Positions 6,163 through 55,204 of a stretch of 55,480 nucleotides of DNA are shown here, piece after piece. The DNA lies in the IMG/VR virus record IMGVR_UViG_3300010368_000014, positions 1 through 55,480 of that record. One strand, given 5' to 3'. The notes beneath the pieces were generated by a model. That model was not told the DNA's origin. It was given only the letters and a program-made list of their open reading frames with translations, and made no database searches. Every line of letters starts with the position of its first letter. Within the stretch, counting starts at the first letter, position 1. Position numbers and translations under genes: made by a program. This DNA comes from a virus.

Positions 6163-6193
6163 CAAAGATAAGAGAAATGTTTTTACTATGCAA
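6163..6193 (-). promoter_or_regulatory. Bacteroidota-type promoter of the primase-helicase gene
   Basis: On the minus strand, TATCTTTG (6170-6163) matches the Bacteroidota -7 consensus TAnnTTTG. TTG (6193-6191) lies exactly 20 bases further upstream in the -33 position. Transcription would start roughly 10-15 bases before the ATG at 6143. The same TTG-N20-TATCTTTG arrangement occurs at 36958-36989 on the other strand. Confidence 0.65.
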
Positions 6194-17495: not shown

Positions 17496-20400
17496 TGGAG
17501 AATAATTTTATTAATAGTGAAAGAGTTTTTAGTGACCTAGAATATACTTTGATCAGAAGTTCAAATATTCTTAGCCAAGAAGTTTCATACAATAATCAAG
17601 TTACAGGGCTTGACTATAATAATGTAACAACACAAAAAATAGATTTCTCACAACCTAATACCTATATAAAATATGGGTCATTATCCAATTTATTAAAGCT
17701 TGGTATTGAATCTATAATAATTAATTATCCTAAATCTCTTAAGATAGAAACTAATGTTATAGGTAGATCAATTAGTGATGTTAACATATATAATATTTCA
17801 AACTTAGGAAATAATCAAAGTTTTAAAATTAATACAAATTACATAAGTAATCCTTTAGAATTAGATTACAGGGTTAACGATTCTTTACTTAATTATTATT
17901 TTGAATATGATAATAACGTATATAAGATTTTATCATATTCATTGCCAAATTCTCTACGAAATTCAAGTATATCTTTAACGGTTGAGGGTAAACCTTTTAA
18001 TAGTCTTTCTGCAATTAATATTAATGGCTATATTTTTAAAACTAGGGATGAAAGATTATTCACAGATTTTGAAAATTATTTACTAAGGGAAAGCTTTTTA
18101 TTCCAGCGTCAGTTAGAAGAACAATATACATATACTTATAATGAAGAATTTAAGTTTCCATTAATAGATAAGTATAATTTAGATATTAAAAGTGAGCTAT
18201 ATTTAACATTTTTAAATAGTCTTTTAGATATAGCGATATACTATGATGAAAATTATACTAATTTAGTTTCTAGGAAATATATACCCTCAATTTTACAAGA
18301 AATTACTTTAAGTTCTAATGGAACGTCTACACTAGGTAAAATTAATGTATTATTAGATGTTATAGCAGCATTTTTTGATAGAAAATATATAGAATCAGTT
18401 TCTTTACAAGAAAAAGAAATAACTTATGACTTTTTATCAGAACAAGATAGATATTCTATCTTATATGAACTGAATAAATTTGGAATAAAGATTAATAGTA
18501 CTAACGTAGGTTTATTTAGTATTTTCTTTTTATACCTAAACCGTTTTTATTTACAGTTTAATAAAGATAGTTTTTTTACCATACAGGAAATACTCAACAT
18601 TATGGGTATTCCAGATGAACTAATAGAATATAATGAGTACGTATATATTTATGAACCTATTAACATAGATTATTTAAACAATGTATTATTAAAAAAATAT
18701 GAGTTAATAGATTTACCATTAAATGCAGATGGTAGTGTAAATTTAGAGAGAATTAACACGCATTTTCAATCTAGTACTTATATTTCTAATTTAGAAAAAA
18801 TAGTCAATGCAGAAAACAGTGGTTTATTTAATGAAGAGCAATTTAAAACCAATCTTTATTTAACTTATAAGACCGACTTTAATACTGATGAAACTTTTTT
18901 TGATGTTGTAACAGAAGATACTTGTTTTATTATAAGTGGAGGTACTACTAGTTTTCTTCCTAAAATAATTGTTGATGAGTGTGGTTGCCCACTTGACCTA
19001 GATGATTTATCATATCAACTTGAAACTACTCATAATGATCCATATTCACTTTCTTGCCCAAAATTGCTTTTGGATATTGTTACCGAGTGTACTAGTTATG
19101 TGAGCAGCGGATTTACAGGTGATACAGAATGTTCTATTTCAGGTATTATTGTATCATCAGATGACCAATTAAATAAAGCAACAATTAATATTAACACTTT
19201 AAATGTTGACATGAAGTATAAAATATTAATTGCCGATACTTGTCAGGGTAATAGAGTTATCGAAAGAGATAGCCTAATATCTTGTGAGGTATTTAGACGT
19301 TATACCAATGATGCCTTTTTTGGTGCATCTGGTTATGTAACGTCTATAAGATTATATGATACTTTAGGTAATATTCCATTAGATATTAATTTAAATCCAT
19401 ATAGTAGCCCACACCTAACAGGATTTTATGGCAGTGTAACAACAAGTCAATTATTATATTCAAGTATTAATTGGGTAGGTAATATTAAAAAGCTAATTAG
19501 AAATGCACTATATGATATTTATGGTGCCGAAGATGGAGTGTCATATGTTTTAGATGTCAATGATTTTTTAGATGGTAATATAGAAATATGTTTTCTCTGT
19601 AAAAATAATGTGTTATTACCGCAATATAACATAGGCATAAATGAAAATGACCCACTTATAACATATTTTGATGGTGTCAATTCTCAATTTATCACTAACA
19701 GTAAATTAAAATATATTATTAATGATTTAATAGATACTGTTCCCACCATTTTAGGTAATTTAACATTTAGTGGAATGGTAAACGATGGTGAATTATCTAA
19801 CATTAATGGCAATTATAACTTTATTTCGTCTGTAACTGAAACATTATCATTGATTAATGTAAGTAATAATGGAGTTCTAACAGGATTGACTACTATGCCA
19901 ATTACATCAGAAGATGTGATAAGCGGGGCTTTTTTAAATTATACAACGTATGGCGGCATTGGCAATTTAACATTTAATGGTAATCAACCCCATCAATTTT
20001 TAAGTTCAGGTGAAACATTTTTTTCATATTTTACAGATGAAAATGGATGCCAGTCTAATTTAGTTTCAGGGGTAGTGTTGTGCCCTCCCGATCCATGTCT
20101 TTTTCAAGAGGTGGTTGAAACTATTAGAGTTACAACAAGTATAACTGAAACAACTGAAACTCTAAGTTGTCCTGATATAGCATTAACATGGGCATTAGAC
20201 CCAGTAGAATTACCAAATGATGGTTCTCCTAGTACTTACTCATTAAGTTTAAGATTTGAAAATTTTGTTGCTGATAATATTGATTATTTTGATGGTATTA
20301 TAACTTTTCCATCATATCCTCTCAATGAACCTATATTATTTACAGGCAATATAATACAAACTTACCACAGTATAAGTGCAACCGTTTTTAATACTCAAAC

Positions 20401-42909: not shown

Positions 42910-43602
42910 ATGTATAGGATTAATAAGAAAAAGTTGGCTGCTGCACTAAATGAAGCAGTATTACTTCAGAAAAAAAACTATAAAAATTTAACATTTGTTG
43001 ATGAGATTTTTAATTCATTTGATATACATATAGATAACATCAAGCATATTATTAGAGAGAGAAGTACAAACAATGCTAAAAGATTATATACATACCTTTT
43101 AGAAGAATGTAATTGTAGCAGCAGATATGATGATGTTGCACCTAAGTTAAATTATCCACCTGAGGAAACTATGCTATATGATGATGATGTCAATGAACAA
43201 TATGGAGATGAGTATTATGATGATGATTATAGCTCGGTAGACGATAATATAGAAAAAACAAGGGATGTTTTTCGTATTATTTATGACAGAGAACCAACAG
43301 ATGAAGAGTTAGAAGATTTTATGGATAGTGATATATTCCACGATTATATCAGAAGTGAAGAAGAATCAAGGGGAGATGCCCAGCATGATTTTAATCGAGA
43401 TATGGCCTTAGGAGAATCAAGTGATGAAGAAGATCAAACACCAAGTTTTTGGGCAGCATATAATGAATCTGTTAAAAAAATGAAAATAGCTAGAAAAAAA
43501 CTTAGTGAATCTGACGTATTAAAAATTAAGTCAGAAGGTTATGACGTTAAAGCTTTCGTGAATGAAGATGATATGATGGAATATGTTAAATCCCTAAAAT
43601 AG
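42910..43602 (+). CDS. Acidic virion-linked protein (230 aa)
   Basis: The N-terminal helix is basic (MYRINKKKLAAALNEAVLLQ). An extremely acidic tract follows in the middle (YDDDVNEQYGDEYYDDDYSS, ~92-111) with more acidic segments to ~180, and the basic C-terminus contains MKIARKKLSESDVLKIKSEG. Such a distribution fits internal head or scaffold-type proteins, and the late box supports a virion role. The gene ends inside a 15-bp hairpin and overlaps the convergent Clp-like gene by 9 bases. The terminal residues YVKSLK mirror the YVKSLF end of that neighbour because of the inverted repeat. Confidence 0.5.
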   Translation: MYRINKKKLAAALNEAVLLQKKNYKNLTFVDEIFNSFDIHIDNIKHIIRERSTNNAKRLYTYLLEECNCSSRYDDVAPKLNYPPEETMLYDDDVNEQYGDEYYDDDYSSVDDNIEKTRDVFRIIYDREPTDEELEDFMDSDIFHDYIRSEEESRGDAQHDFNRDMALGESSDEEDQTPSFWAAYNESVKKMKIARKKLSESDVLKIKSEGYDVKAFVNEDDMMEYVKSLK

Positions 43603-43615
43603 GGATTTAACATAT
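43581..43615. terminator. 15-bp hairpin at convergent gene ends
   Basis: ATATGTTAAATCCCT (43581-43595) pairs perfectly with AGGGATTTAACATAT (43601-43615) around a 5-base loop. On the plus strand AATTTTTTGTTTTC follows, so it can terminate the acidic-protein gene; the minus side has no T-run. It contains the stop codons of both convergent genes. Confidence 0.6.
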
Positions 43616-50805: not shown

Positions 50806-51282
50806 ATGAATTTATCTAAATGGGATTTAAGATTTATCAAGCGAGTTGATGAAGTGGCAAGCTGGTCAAAAGATAATTCTACTAAAGTTGGCTGTTTATT
50901 TGTGAAGAATAAAAAAACCTTAGTAGAAGGTTATAATGGTTTGCCAAGCTATTTAAATGATAAAAATGAATATTATCATAAAGCTCCACAAAAATATTTT
51001 TATTTTGAACATGCTGAAAGAAATGCGATTTATTTAGCACAGCAGAATGGTATTTCTTTAGAGGGGTCAACCTGTTATCTCAATTGGATTCCTTGTCCAG
51101 ATTGTATGAGAGCGATTTTATATCAAAAACCAGAAAAAATTCTTTGTGATTTAACTATCCGTGAAAAACGAGAAGATTGGAAAGATAAATTCCAAGCATC
51201 TATTCATTTGTCTAAAATGGCTGATGTTATTATCTTATTCACCCACGATGGAGTAAATTGGTCAGAACAACATAATCTTTGA
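50806..51282 (+). CDS. dCMP / cytidine-type deaminase (158 aa)
   Basis: The zinc-dependent deaminase motifs are complete: EHAERNA (H69, E71) and IPCPDCMRAI (C97, C100). The N-terminal MNLSKWDLRFIKRVDEVASW with SKDNSTKVGC is typical of phage and cellular dCMP deaminases. It converts dCMP to dUMP, the substrate of thymidylate synthase encoded at 45924. No clear allosteric extension is visible. It lies between head genes, an odd place for a nucleotide enzyme, and is followed by the late box of the capsid gene. Confidence 0.85.
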   Translation: MNLSKWDLRFIKRVDEVASWSKDNSTKVGCLFVKNKKTLVEGYNGLPSYLNDKNEYYHKAPQKYFYFEHAERNAIYLAQQNGISLEGSTCYLNWIPCPDCMRAILYQKPEKILCDLTIREKREDWKDKFQASIHLSKMADVIILFTHDGVNWSEQHNL

Positions 51283-51290
51283 TTAATTAC

Positions 51291-51299
51291 CTATTTATA
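51291..51299 (+). promoter_or_regulatory. Putative late promoter box CTATTTATA of the capsid gene
   Basis: CTATTTATATAAAAAA, 12 bases before the capsid ATG at 51312. The 16 bases are identical to those of the box before the tail tube gene (minus strand, 41641-41626), the two genes expected to need most protein. Confidence 0.75.
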
Positions 51300-51311
51300 T
51301 AAAAAATATAA

Positions 51312-53018
51312 ATGGTTAATCATTTAACAGGATTAAACAAATCTTTTATACCGACCGATAATCTTTTAGTAGAAAAATACAGTAATTATTCTGAACATGA
51401 TAAATTTGGGCAGTATGATAATTATAACTTCTTATTAGAAAAGACTGAACCTGAAAAGGAACAATTAAGTTTGCTTTTAGAGAATGTGTCAGGAAATGTG
51501 TCAGGTGTTTTCGCTTCTATTGCATTTCCACTTATTAAGCGTACTTTTGATAATATCATATCAAAAAGCCTAGTTACATTTTACCCAATTGATAAAGCAT
51601 CAAGTAAAATTTTCTTTTTTTATCCTAAAGTATCATCTCGCAGAGAAAGCGGTGGTAAGCAAATTCACATAGAAAATACAAGTGATTATAAATGTTTAGG
51701 ATTAAATTGCCCTGAGCCTTTTGTGGAAAGCTGTAAATCATTTTACGATCAGCTTTATAATGATTCTTTTTATGATCAATCTAAAGGAGCGTATGAAGTT
51801 ATAGTTGCTACTGGGACTCCTTTTTCATTTGATGCAGATAGTTGTATAGTACCTTATACAGATGTCACCTCACAAGATAATACTATTAGAGCCATTGGTT
51901 TTAAAATAACTGGATTAAATAACAAGCCAGTCTTTAGTAATGGCAGAGGAAATGAAATAGCTGTTGAAGAATTTATTACATCTTTTAGAGTTATAAACTC
52001 TGGTGCTCCTATTGTTGATTCATCTGATAATGTAATATATCAAACAGGTGATGAAGTTAAGGGAAGATTTTTCGCACAAAAATATGGGGATAGTATTGTA
52101 CATGTTGATGATTTATGCGATGAAAATGGGTATATTTTATATGAAATTGATTTAAAACATCCTGTTAGTTCTGGCAATCCAACAACATATGATGGATATG
52201 TTGGAGTTTTACCTAACGTTAATATTTCTTCAAATTTTACATTTACTTGGAAACGATATGATACCCTAGAAAATAATGGACAAATTAGTGAATATGGTTT
52301 TGATTTACGTGGTATAGATTTACAAGTTGTTGATCGAATGACTAGAGCGATATGGTCACCACAACTTCAAATGGATTTACAAGCATATCAAAATATTAAC
52401 GCTAATAAAGAATTTATTAATTCTATGTCGCAGCAAATTGCCTTAGAAATTGATAGAGAGATTTTACTTGATTTAAAAAACGCTGCGCCTTGGGCATTAA
52501 GATTTGATTATTTAGGATGGCAAAATACCACTCAAACTTACAATCAAGAGTTATGGAACAAAAAATTATTCGACAAGATTAATGAGGTTTCAGCACAAAT
52601 ACATAAAACGACTAATTGTGGTGGAGCAAATTGGGTTGTTCTTAGTCCTGAAGCTTCTGCTCTGTTCCCTAATTTAAGCATTTTAAGAGAGGGAGAGACA
52701 CTTACAGAAAAAGATAGGTACAACATAGGTCTAAAGAGAGTAGGAACCTTAGGAGGGAGATATGACGTATTTATTGATGCTTTTGCTAAACCTAATGATA
52801 TACTTATTGGGTTTAAACCAGAATCATTGACAAATGTGGGGTATATTTATGCACCATATGTTTTAGCACAACCAAGTGTTCCTGTTATGAATCCAAATAA
52901 TTTCTCTATAAATCAGATGTTAATGACTAGATATGCAAAGAAATTTACTAATAGCAAGATGTATGGGAAAATTTACGTAGATAATATACCTACATTTAAT
53001 ACATTTGAAAGTCGATAA
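51312..53018 (+). CDS. Major capsid protein (T4 gp23-like, 568 aa)
   Basis: An HK97-fold capsid protein of the gp23 type. The conserved C-terminal half is clear: RMTRAIWSPQLQMDLQAYQN, then NSMSQQIALEIDREIL (~373-386), and INEVSAQIHKTTNCGGANWV followed by GGRYDVFIDAFAKPNDILIG and MLMTRYAKKFTNSKMYGKIY at the end. The N-terminal ~65 residues may be removed by a prohead protease in maturation; no cleavage site is certain. The long middle (~100-330) holds an inserted beta-rich domain. Late box 12 bases upstream of the ATG and a strong hairpin 29 bases after the stop. Confidence 0.88.
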   Translation: MVNHLTGLNKSFIPTDNLLVEKYSNYSEHDKFGQYDNYNFLLEKTEPEKEQLSLLLENVSGNVSGVFASIAFPLIKRTFDNIISKSLVTFYPIDKASSKIFFFYPKVSSRRESGGKQIHIENTSDYKCLGLNCPEPFVESCKSFYDQLYNDSFYDQSKGAYEVIVATGTPFSFDADSCIVPYTDVTSQDNTIRAIGFKITGLNNKPVFSNGRGNEIAVEEFITSFRVINSGAPIVDSSDNVIYQTGDEVKGRFFAQKYGDSIVHVDDLCDENGYILYEIDLKHPVSSGNPTTYDGYVGVLPNVNISSNFTFTWKRYDTLENNGQISEYGFDLRGIDLQVVDRMTRAIWSPQLQMDLQAYQNINANKEFINSMSQQIALEIDREILLDLKNAAPWALRFDYLGWQNTTQTYNQELWNKKLFDKINEVSAQIHKTTNCGGANWVVLSPEASALFPNLSILREGETLTEKDRYNIGLKRVGTLGGRYDVFIDAFAKPNDILIGFKPESLTNVGYIYAPYVLAQPSVPVMNPNNFSINQMLMTRYAKKFTNSKMYGKIYVDNIPTFNTFESR

Positions 53019-53029
53019 ATTTACTGTAT

Positions 53030-54121
53030 ATGTTATACACATTATTATGCATATTATGTTTTATAAACATAATATGCATTTTTTTTAATTTTTTATTTTA
53101 TAAGCGTAATTATTATAAAATAAAAATTATAGATGGAATACAAAAAAACAGTCAGGTTTGCATATACGTTAAAGATAAAAATCATAGATTTAATTTTGTA
53201 ACTGATAATTTTGAAGAATTTGCACCATTATATAACGTGTTTGGATTTACAGATTATGATTTTTTCCCTAAAGACATTGCTGATAAATTTAGAGAGGGAG
53301 ACTTACATGTGAGGTCAACACATGAAAGGTTAAATATTATTGATGCATTAGAATTAGGAGATAATGTTTTATATTATAATTCATCTAAATTTATGATTGA
53401 TAACGAAAACATGTGTGGTGTAAGCATAGATATAACTAATGAAATTAAAAAAAGTGAAAAGGTACAAGAAACGAATAATTTTTTAACTCATATAAATTAC
53501 ATAATAAGACATGATTTATATAACTCAATAAATTTAGTTAATCAGTTTTTTATTAAAATCGAAAAAAAAATTGAAATAGAATATTTAGAAGAGCATAAAA
53601 TAATTGGAGCTTTTAAAGCTTTAAAACAATGTATTTTTACTTTAAAAGAAACCTTTCAAGGGATTTGTGATTTTAGTATAATGTTGGATGATCATAAAAA
53701 ATTACCTGTTGAAAGTTTTTACTTAAGTGTAATATTAAATGATTTTTTAAAAAAAACCGCTTATTATTCATATGTAGATATAGATGAAGAAATGGGAATA
53801 ATTACAGCAAATAAATCATTGATGATAACGGCTCTTATCAATTTAATAAAAAATGGAATTAAGCACAATAATTCACAAAATAAAAAAGTAAAAATTTATA
53901 AATGTGAGAATGATCTACTTATAGAAGATAATGGGTATGGTATAACAGATGAACAACTTTCTAAATTTATAAAGCCATATTCACAAGCAAATGATAATGG
54001 TGAGGGATTAGGGTTAGGATTATCAATAACAAACCTAATTTTAAAATACCATAATTTAAATTTATCTGCTTTACCTAAAGAAAACGGTACTATTTTAGTA
54101 ATAAAAAATATATTCATATAA
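53030..54121 (+). CDS. Membrane-anchored sensor histidine kinase (363 aa)
   Basis: An N-terminal membrane helix (LLCILCFINIICIFFNFLFY, 5-24) is followed by a PAS-like domain (~35-135; NSQVCIYVKDKNHRFNFVTD, then FGFTDYDFFPKDIADKF). The HisKA-like helix has IIRHDLYNSINLV with the phospho-acceptor H161. The HATPase part has the N-box LINLIKNGIKHN (N271/N275), G1 EDNGYGI (299-305) and G2 GEGLGLGLSI (324-333). All landmarks for ATP-dependent autophosphorylation are present. No other phage gene here has this shape. A terminator-type hairpin overlaps codons 6-19. It is directly behind the capsid gene and followed by a response regulator. Confidence 0.8.
   Translation: MLYTLLCILCFINIICIFFNFLFYKRNYYKIKIIDGIQKNSQVCIYVKDKNHRFNFVTDNFEEFAPLYNVFGFTDYDFFPKDIADKFREGDLHVRSTHERLNIIDALELGDNVLYYNSSKFMIDNENMCGVSIDITNEIKKSEKVQETNNFLTHINYIIRHDLYNSINLVNQFFIKIEKKIEIEYLEEHKIIGAFKALKQCIFTLKETFQGICDFSIMLDDHKKLPVESFYLSVILNDFLKKTAYYSYVDIDEEMGIITANKSLMITALINLIKNGIKHNNSQNKKVKIYKCENDLLIEDNGYGITDEQLSKFIKPYSQANDNGEGLGLGLSITNLILKYHNLNLSALPKENGTILVIKNIFI
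53047..53086 (+). terminator. Strong intrinsic terminator after the capsid gene, inside the kinase start
   Basis: ATGCATATTATGTTT (53047-53061) pairs perfectly with AAACATAATATGCAT (53065-53079) around a 3-base loop, followed by eight T (53079-53086). It fits a classical rho-independent terminator of the capsid transcript. Its stem lies within the first codons of the histidine kinase, so readthrough would set kinase expression. Confidence 0.75.
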
Positions 54122-54130
54122 TATATTTTT

Positions 54131-54139
54131 ATATTTATA
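54131..54139 (+). promoter_or_regulatory. Weak late-box variant ATATTTATA
   Basis: One base off CTATTTATA, 16 bases before the response regulator ATG at 54156. The variant may be chance in an AT-rich gap. If active, it would express the regulator separately from the kinase. Confidence 0.25.
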
Positions 54140-54155
54140 TGAAAAAAAAGTTTTG

Positions 54156-54602
54156 ATGTTTAGCAACTATAAAATAAAAACACTTTTATGTGTTGAAGAT
54201 GATATATTTTATTCATATCTTTTTCAAGATGCAGCAGAAAGTGTAGATTTAGCAATAAAAGTAAAAGCCATTCATTCTTCTGATGAAGCAGAAGAATGGT
54301 TTATTAAATCAAGAAAGCGGGGGGATGTTCCTGATTGTATTTTTGTGGATGTAAATCTTAAAGGGTCTTCTTTTTCTGGGTTAGAACTTATAAGAAAAAT
54401 TAATTTTGAACATGGAAATAACGTTGTTATTGGTGTTATATCAACATCTAATGATGATCAAGAAAAAGCAACAGCAGTAAAAAATGGGGCACAATTCTGG
54501 ATTTTGAAAGACACGTTAGATTTAGAAAAAGTATTAATTGATTTTAAAGATGATTTTATAGGTTTTCAAAACAGATTATTACCATTTAAAACCTATAAAT
54601 AA
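54156..54602 (+). CDS. Single-domain response regulator (CheY-like, 148 aa)
   Basis: A receiver domain with all key residues: the acidic pair in VEDD (E14, D15, D16), the phospho-acceptor D65 in IFVDVNLKG, the switch Ser/Thr in VISTSND (96-98) and the lysine K118 in WILKD. No DNA-binding or other output domain follows; the protein ends shortly after the receiver. It is therefore a phosphate-dependent interaction partner, not a classical transcription factor. The start is ATG 54156. It lies 34 bases after the histidine kinase stop and shares a base with the start of the next gene. Confidence 0.85.
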   Translation: MFSNYKIKTLLCVEDDIFYSYLFQDAAESVDLAIKVKAIHSSDEAEEWFIKSRKRGDVPDCIFVDVNLKGSSFSGLELIRKINFEHGNNVVIGVISTSNDDQEKATAVKNGAQFWILKDTLDLEKVLIDFKDDFIGFQNRLLPFKTYK

Positions 54603-55204
54603 TGATTATTGATGAAAAAACATTTGAGGCTCTATATGAATTAAAAGAAACACAGGAGATTTTTTTGAGTGGAGATATAATAAAATTTATAGAGCCTCAA
54701 GATGAATTACAAAAAGTATATTTGTTTGAATGTATTACTTTATATAAAAATTCTATAAGAAATCGTTTAAGTACTTCACAACTAGTTTTAAAACAAAATT
54801 TACAACTAGTAAAAAAGGAAACTATTTTATTAGAAACGTTAGAACAATTAAGAATTGAAAGTGAAGCAGTAAAAGAAGAAAAAAATAGAACTAAAGAAAT
54901 ATTAGTTTTAACCGAAAGAGATAAAGTTTCTGCTGAACAGCAAGTAGAGATACTCAAAACCAGTAAAAAATTAGACATATTAAATAGAGGGTTACTTTTT
55001 AGTATGATAGCTATATTTACTATTATTGTTAGTGTTACTCTTATTCAAACTGCTTTTCTGTATAAAAATTTAGAAACTGATCAAATTATAGGCAATGTGT
55101 TTAATATATACAATATCTTACTAACTGGTTTACTTACAATAGTCAGCAGTGTCTTAGGGGTAAAAATAGGGTTAAATAATAATAAGGAAGAAAAAACAGT
55201 TTAA
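54602..55204 (+). CDS. Coiled-coil membrane protein (200 aa) linked to the two-component genes
   Basis: A long helical coil (~60-135; VLKQNLQLVKKETILLETLE, then KEEKNRTKEILVLTERDKVS) followed by two membrane helices (LLFSMIAIFTIIVSVTLIQT and IYNILLTGLLTIVSSVLGVK) near the C-terminus. The coil would be cytoplasmic. The topology suggests a membrane platform or effector for the kinase/regulator pair. The start shares a base with the regulator stop (TAATG), so it is co-translated. No family recognised. Confidence 0.6.
   Translation: MIIDEKTFEALYELKETQEIFLSGDIIKFIEPQDELQKVYLFECITLYKNSIRNRLSTSQLVLKQNLQLVKKETILLETLEQLRIESEAVKEEKNRTKEILVLTERDKVSAEQQVEILKTSKKLDILNRGLLFSMIAIFTIIVSVTLIQTAFLYKNLETDQIIGNVFNIYNILLTGLLTIVSSVLGVKIGLNNNKEEKTV

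Follow-up and report, generated by a model that had tools for sequence, protein, structure and literature searches.

Three adjacent genes that follow the major capsid gene in the IMG/VR virus record IMGVR_UViG_3300010368_000014 (55,480 bases, analysed at its full length and referred to below as the window) encode a histidine kinase, a single-domain receiver and a coiled-coil protein with a predicted membrane hairpin. A preliminary description of this DNA had placed three co-directional genes at positions 53030–55204 and had claimed a complete two-component pair among them; the genes are real, and kinase and receiver, with all of their catalytic residues, are found in a phage with a gp23-type capsid protein. 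The reading that we favour, to which we give somewhat less than an even chance, is that they form a genuine phage-borne two-component pair with a membrane partner, which occupies an accessory slot behind the terminator of the capsid gene and acts by the steps proposed in the final section. What had been taken for a membrane helix of the kinase probably, but not certainly, results from translating that terminator.

The Kinase and Receiver Genes

The open reading frame (ORF) of the kinase (53030–54121, plus strand) is 363 amino acids (aa) long and comprises a PAS-like domain, a DHp domain with H161 and a catalytic ATPase domain. Its match to the HATPase_c model (E = 1.6e-12) scores 48.3 bits against a Pfam cut-off of 26.4, whereas no match to the HisKA model of Pfam was obtained. 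Alignment to 14 bacterial relatives (20–25% identity, taken from 48 loci) shows that residues N275, D300, G302, G304, G328, and G330 do not vary and that at least 90% of the 15 sequences share H161 and N271, and the DYDFFPKD motif of the protein is common to other kinases; the H, N, G1, and G2 motifs are thus intact, as had been claimed. A profile built from these 15 sequences matches many solved kinases. The AlphaFold2 (AF2) model that was based upon the same alignment has a mean predicted local distance difference test score (pLDDT) of 75.2, with values of about 58–66 for the DHp helices, and its residues 142–363 superpose on HK853 (6rgy_A; Z 17.5, root mean square deviation 3.8 Å, 216 residues); the corresponding values for 8f71_B are Z 18.0, 5.4 Å and 157 residues, and the model resembles further solved kinases at Z 17–18. 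The conservation of H161 and the superposition of the model on HK853 both point to this residue as the phosphoacceptor histidine of a DHp hairpin. The description of the protein as a PAS kinase is less secure: a PAS-like fold is predicted from residue 43 onward in the AF2 model, but the match to PAS_4 is slightly under the curated cut-off (21.6 vs 23.1 bits).

The receiver gene begins at 54153 (TTG) or 54156 (ATG) and ends at 54602 on the plus strand; residue numbers given here are counted from the ATG. The product matches Response_reg (E = 2.6e-10, 40.9 bits vs a cut-off of 30.2), its residues D65, S96, and K118 align with those of NarL, and E14/D15 align with the response regulator 6xvu, so that the acidic pocket, the acceptor aspartate, the Thr/Ser position and the lysine of response regulators are all present and the reported integrity of D65 and K118 is confirmed. 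Motif sets such as those of the kinase and the receiver are not due to chance. The protein of 149 aa consists of the receiver alone, with no DNA-binding or other output domain C-terminal to it, again in agreement with the preliminary description, and the simplest explanation of its output is a protein partner. The receiver is of the canonical kind, and no match to the cREC_REC model (PF20274) was found at E ≤ 1. A separate gene for a cyclic-phosphate processing receiver (cREC) is present elsewhere in the same phage, at 118658–118987 (minus strand) of the longer assembly G001 described below, which corresponds to 18658–18987 of locus L019 (cREC_REC, E = 2.8e-26).

The codon usage of all three genes is phage-like, the kinase falling at the 95th and the receiver and the third gene each at the 86th percentile of 133 genes, and the G+C content at their third codon positions is 0.14–0.15 compared with a mean of 0.196. 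These values make it less likely that the genes were taken very recently from a host with a higher G+C content, and the codon usage together with the intact catalytic residues speaks against a capture that is fresh or in decay.

The Third Protein

The third gene (54602–55204, plus strand) encodes a protein of 200 aa, and its ATG overlaps the receiver stop codon by a single base (TAATG). The claim that the product is a coiled-coil protein with two membrane helices agrees with predictions from its hydrophobicity and from a single-sequence model (pLDDT 70.6): the latter contains helices at residues 35–156 and 159–199, and two hydrophobic segments start at residues 132 and 166, consistent with a C-terminal two-helix membrane hairpin. 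As its sequence is without any histidine, the protein is not a phosphotransfer step. It is the best candidate for the partner of the receiver, a role that had been suggested for it earlier and that is favoured by the overlap of its start with the receiver stop. Its topology alone is compatible with a holin or a lysis effector. A match to a PHROGs endolysin (E = 0.26) was dismissed as noise, and the sole structural match below E = 1, to the uncharacterised uncultured-phage protein A0A6J5PRT3 (E = 1.1e-3, 25% identity), is based upon a single-sequence model with a predicted template modelling (pTM) score of 0.30 and is kept as a lead.

A Probable Terminator within the Kinase Reading Frame

A perfect 15-bp stem with a 3-nucleotide loop, followed by a T-tract, is located at 53047–53079 (plus strand), where it spans codons 6–17 of the kinase ORF. 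Its folding energy is −15.7 kcal/mol (z = −4.98), and none of 200 shuffled sequences folded as well. Only three perfect hairpins of at least 15 bp (loops of 3–8) occur in the 132.8-kb assembly of this phage, while five Markov random sequences yielded 0, 0, 0, 1, and 0 comparable ones. Those at 43581 and 107341 span the ends of convergent genes; the former, at 43581–43615, has a perfect 16-bp stem lying across the overlapping ends of the two genes.

The region behind the capsid gene was also surveyed in relatives. Of 86 capsid loci, 83 had at least 150 nucleotides downstream, namely this phage, 77 relatives from viral contigs and five loci from the phages collection; the 82 relatives are L010, L011, L026–L028, and L031–L110, except for L034, L096, and L103, which have fewer than 150 nucleotides after the capsid gene. 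A terminator-like hairpin, defined as a perfect stem of at least 7 bp with a T-rich tail within 140 nucleotides of the capsid stop, was present in 68 of the 83 loci (this phage and 67 of the 82 relatives), compared with 26 of 830 windows placed at random in these loci (3%) and 38 of 514 windows that follow other plus-strand ORFs of at least 150 aa (7%). In the relatives the hairpin mostly starts about 20–30 nucleotides past the capsid stop, and in this phage it starts 29 nucleotides past it. Several of the post-capsid hairpins of the relatives have related stem sequences, e.g. GGGACAAGAAATTGTCCC. The hairpin at 53047–53079 is therefore a probable transcription terminator of the capsid gene.

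This has consequences for the start of the kinase, which had been described as a membrane protein. An open hydrophobic frame does exist, but the hydrophobic stretch, residues 2–23, is encoded by the terminator-like hairpin and its T-tract, and the membrane anchor is for this reason insecure. Among 26 hydrophobic segments of this phage, the stretch has the lowest content of Ala, Val, and Gly (none; tied with one other segment) and the fewest codons with G or C in first position (0 of 22, the next lowest having two). Similarly, the G+C content at the first codon position is 3% over codons 1–33, as against 32% for the whole kinase and a gene mean of 38%. In favour of coding, no other of the 26 segments is as hydrophobic as this stretch, and the chance of the frame staying open over it is P = 0.033. 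The alternative is a soluble kinase that starts at an ATT codon (codon 33; 53126–54121, plus strand). Among 88 phage genes the start context of this ATT falls at the 89th percentile whereas that of the ATG at 53030 falls at the 3rd, and the kinase ORF contains no in-frame ATG, GTG or TTG between the ATG at 53030 and a GTG at codon 70. Against the ATT, start codons of this kind are rare. The PAS-like fold, which begins at residue 43, would be intact with either start. As a matter of judgement we lean, slightly beyond an even chance, towards a soluble kinase that starts at 53126 rather than an anchored one that starts at 53030. A general caution is that calling of the longest ORF behind a conserved phage terminator can produce a false membrane helix.

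Promoter Motifs and Expression

Eleven copies of the motif CTATTTATA are present in the 132.8-kb assembly, and eight of them lie 15–22 nucleotides before gene starts, at 1601 (minus), 9652, 41641 (minus), 42858 (minus), 42894, 46855, and 51291 of the window and at 106932 (minus) of G001. The copy at 51291–51299 (plus strand) is located 21 nucleotides before the start of the major capsid gene. Based upon this position and upon its likeness to the late box of T4, CTATTTATA is a probable late promoter of the phage. A related motif, ATATTTATA, is found at 54131–54139 (plus strand), 22 nucleotides before the TTG and 25 nucleotides before the ATG of the receiver. With a matrix derived from the eight CTATTTATA sites before gene starts it scores 13.5 and ranks 11th in the whole record; two of the top three sites outside the training set lie 14–22 nucleotides before a start. 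As this late-type motif precedes the receiver, the receiver and the third protein are probably late genes. No late-type motif precedes the kinase (best matrix score 1.9), which would therefore rely upon read-through or upon an unrecognised promoter. The earlier placement of the cassette in a late virion region is insecure: a late-like motif does precede the capsid gene, but the probable terminator closes that gene, and membership of the cassette in a virion operon is not supported, since it follows the capsid terminator and lies in a variable slot.

A site at 54594 that fits the T4 late consensus TATAAATA was rejected as a promoter of the third gene, as it ends just before the ATG and is too close to it; this consensus has 31 plus-strand sites in the record, a count that comes without a computed expectation. 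A scan for sigma-70-type promoters was uninformative (60 found vs 68.6 expected in shuffled sequences). The promoter-like motif TATCTTTG is present in 11 upstream regions compared with 0.15 expected and is probably a host-type promoter; it resembles the TAnnTTTG box of Bacteroidota. It has 37 sites in G001, 20 of which lie within 150 nucleotides before gene starts (17 of these 20 beyond 58 kb), and its sites inside the window are at 6170 (minus), 36982, and 45612 (minus).

The Accessory Slot and the Distribution of the Cassette

Among the 55 capsid loci with more than 2.5 kb downstream, including that of this phage, the genes after the capsid gene vary in both length and strand. Since it is the genes following the terminator that vary among relatives, the cassette is placed in an accessory slot. 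Ten first downstream plus-strand genes, mostly larger ones, were picked by hand for comparison with Pfam. The matches over the cut-off were to acetyltransferases (two genes), ROS/MUCR-type proteins (two), a subtilase (one) and a GEVED-domain protein (one); below the cut-off there were restriction-nuclease-like matches in four genes and one other match, and two genes were without any match.

The same three-gene order was sought elsewhere, and scans of viral contigs gave only two other assemblies of the same phage; the scans with single proteins (kinase, receiver or third protein) reach close relatives only. When an alignment of four kinases was used as the query, four further weak kinase/PAS matches were found in viral contigs. 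In the phages collection the kinase weakly matches nine records, whereas the receiver has no match at E ≤ 0.01 and the third protein none at E ≤ 10. Among plasmids the kinase matches 25 records at E ≤ 1e-5 (the 10 listed are 22–35% identical) and the third protein has none at E ≤ 1. A search of 395 genomes from the order to which a Lutibacter genome belongs, with no known positive as a control, gave no kinase match at E ≤ 1e-15; at the level of the phylum, matches at E ≤ 1e-10 were obtained in 22 of the 345 genomes, with 25–38% identity. For the third protein, matches in five of the 395 genomes (E = 2.5e-4 to 0.006) were discarded, as all five have stops in the matched frame, and none of the 345 genomes matched at 1e-4, again with no known positive as a control. 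The homologues that were found are 20–38% identical and too divergent for the source of the kinase and receiver to be placed.

Comparison with Known Systems

With the orthodox kinases HK853 of Thermotoga and the bacteriophytochrome RpBphP2 (output domain) the phage kinase shares the fold of the DHp/ATPase core and the H, N, G1, and G2 motifs; it differs from them in being phage-encoded, in having no secure membrane helix and no HisKA match in Pfam, and in its low identity (18–19%). The order of a kinase followed by a single-domain receiver, and the approximate lengths, are those of bacterial CheY-type receivers after PAS kinases, e.g. the 146-aa receiver in locus L116. Matches in the 395 genomes of one Bacteroidota order are 25–35% identical, and the phage adds to the pair a coupled gene for a membrane hairpin.

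The best-known phage signalling systems serve the choice between lysis and lysogeny in temperate phages. Histidine kinases of phages are already known: BFVD contains proteins annotated as kinases from uncultured Caudovirales phages (25% identity across 351 columns and 31% across 230) and from an uncultured marine phage (30% across 219 columns). These proteins (A0A6J5L941, A0A6J5L9N4, and A0A8D9FRZ3) are histidine kinases like the present one, with 25–31% identity, and were compared by the kinase alone. The phage phiCDHM1 carries an AgrC histidine kinase together with AgrB/AgrD, and is reported to have no response regulator (PMC3901668); the likeness is again that of a phage histidine kinase, and the quorum-sensing context and the lack of a phage receiver in that account set it apart (PMC3901668). 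The cRec domains of jumbo phages, said in the portion of the source cited here never to occur with histidine-kinase systems, and the cREC of this phage have a receiver fold, whereas the present receiver matches Response_reg instead (PMC7824862). The literature searched, which was mostly at the level of titles and the starts of abstracts, contained no report of a phage cassette of kinase, receiver and membrane hairpin, and it is the combination of the kinase and receiver with a coupled membrane-hairpin gene that is new.

The Source Record and Other Genes of the Phage

The window corresponds to positions 1–55480 of the 132,834-base record G001 and to 7746–63225 of the 92,950-base record G002. 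Its sole mismatch with either is the same single base (28990), outside the cassette, and G001 and G002 show no differences below 80 kb of G001. These records are three assemblies of one phage, and the cassette is identical in all of them. The major capsid gene, which adjoins the cassette and is not part of it, is located at 51312–53018 (plus strand) and its product is of the gp23 type (Pfam Gp23, E = 4.6e-42). Its identity to relatives is at most 38%, as judged from the best 80 of 578 other confirmed relatives in viral contigs, which were the ones kept. The host of the phage probably belongs to the Bacteroidota. Upstream, the capsid gene is adjoined by a dCMP deaminase gene (50806–51282; phrog_174, E = 2.4e-25), in the position of which most of the listed relatives have a gene of about 400–580 aa. 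Elsewhere in G001, and judged by eye, neighbouring genes at 100769–102543 resemble a serine recombinase and a TnpB-like protein in the style of IS607, a second TnpB-like gene ends at 99999 (possibly 98177–99999), and a large secreted-looking protein with a zinc-protease motif of the HExxHxxGxxH type is encoded at 66091–68340.

Possible Roles of the Cassette

The favoured reading, a working two-component pair with a membrane partner, would proceed as follows. The receiver and the hairpin protein would be made late from their own late promoter. Less of the kinase would be made, from transcripts that either run past the capsid terminator or start at a weak promoter. The PAS-like domain of the kinase may read a small ligand or the energy or redox state of the infected cell, upon which the kinase would phosphorylate D65 of the receiver. 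The phosphorylated receiver would then bind to the coiled coil that the hairpin protein exposes in the cytosol and alter how this protein assembles in the inner membrane, and this change may adjust late events, such as the timing of lysis or the exclusion of a second phage, both of which are guesses. The preliminary description had likewise proposed that the cassette might sense the infected cell or its envelope and time lysis.

Several observations weigh against this reading. The HATPase_c and Response_reg domains were each absent from all 47 related records that were searched whole (drawn from the 80 fetched capsid loci, mostly the longer ones, and many of them fragments), and among the ORFs of 85 related loci none is similar to the kinase, the receiver or the third protein at E ≤ 0.01; conservation therefore gives the cassette no support. 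Selection on the cassette is likewise not measurable, because the three assemblies are identical there. The third protein has no significant match in Pfam, PHROGs or NCBIfam and matches no known effector family. The G+C content of the kinase (22.4%) is low even within the phage (4th percentile), and the start context is poor for the receiver (10th percentile for the ATG, 31st for the TTG) as well as for the ATG of the kinase. Moreover, the sensing of a signal, the phosphorylation of D65 and the action of the receiver on the hairpin protein are suggested by gene order and type of fold only.

An unlikely but serious alternative is that the kinase, the receiver or both act in the phosphorelays of the host as a source, sink or decoy for phosphate, the hairpin protein being an unrelated late membrane protein; interference with a host signalling pathway had been raised in the preliminary description. 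A single-domain receiver can serve as a phosphate sink. The AgrC of phiCDHM1 offers a parallel, as in the part of the report cited here it stands without a phage receiver and its authors suggest a response mediated by the host (PMC3901668); in the present phage, however, the kinase comes with a receiver whose stop is overlapped by the hairpin gene, an arrangement more in keeping with a relay that is complete in itself. It is rather improbable that the cassette is a host-derived passenger of a variable slot, little expressed and of no benefit, in which the terminator separates the kinase from both its start and its promoter. The kinase ATG upstream of the terminator, the lack of a late motif before this gene and the absence of kinase and receiver domains from the 47 related records would fit such a passenger, whereas the intact catalytic residues of both proteins, the phage-like codon usage and the late-type motif before the receiver speak against it. 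The preliminary description had named absence from all related phages as a sign of a recent, non-functional capture; kinase and receiver domains were indeed absent from the 47 related records searched, but the same codon usage and catalytic residues oppose a recent or decayed capture, and as the relatives are distant, the absence does not date the acquisition. Lower still is the probability of superinfection exclusion or phage-borne defence, in which the relay would respond to a second phage or to damage of the membrane by opening a two-helix effector in the membrane. A two-helix hairpin encoded behind a signalling pair, and the acetyltransferase, protease and (below the cut-off) nuclease-like genes among the other occupants of the slot, are in keeping with this; against it, none of the three proteins matches a PADLOC model at E ≤ 1, and late expression comes late for exclusion.

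The boldest reading is a lytic T4-like phage with a phosphorelay of its own, in which the 5′ end of the kinase gene doubles as the capsid terminator and the receiver gates a dedicated two-helix membrane effector; we consider this full combination improbable. If it is true, the dose of the kinase would depend upon how often the strongest late transcript reads through, and the late programme or the permeability of the cell would answer to a sensed signal. The cassette is noteworthy in that the pair is complete and testable, while the membrane claim made for the kinase is probably a terminator misread as protein. Its presence suggests that the virus may sense or steer the infected cell, and a self-contained late set of kinase, receiver and membrane protein in a gp23-type phage would, if true, provide a well-defined instance, open to test, of a virus that senses its host cell late in infection.

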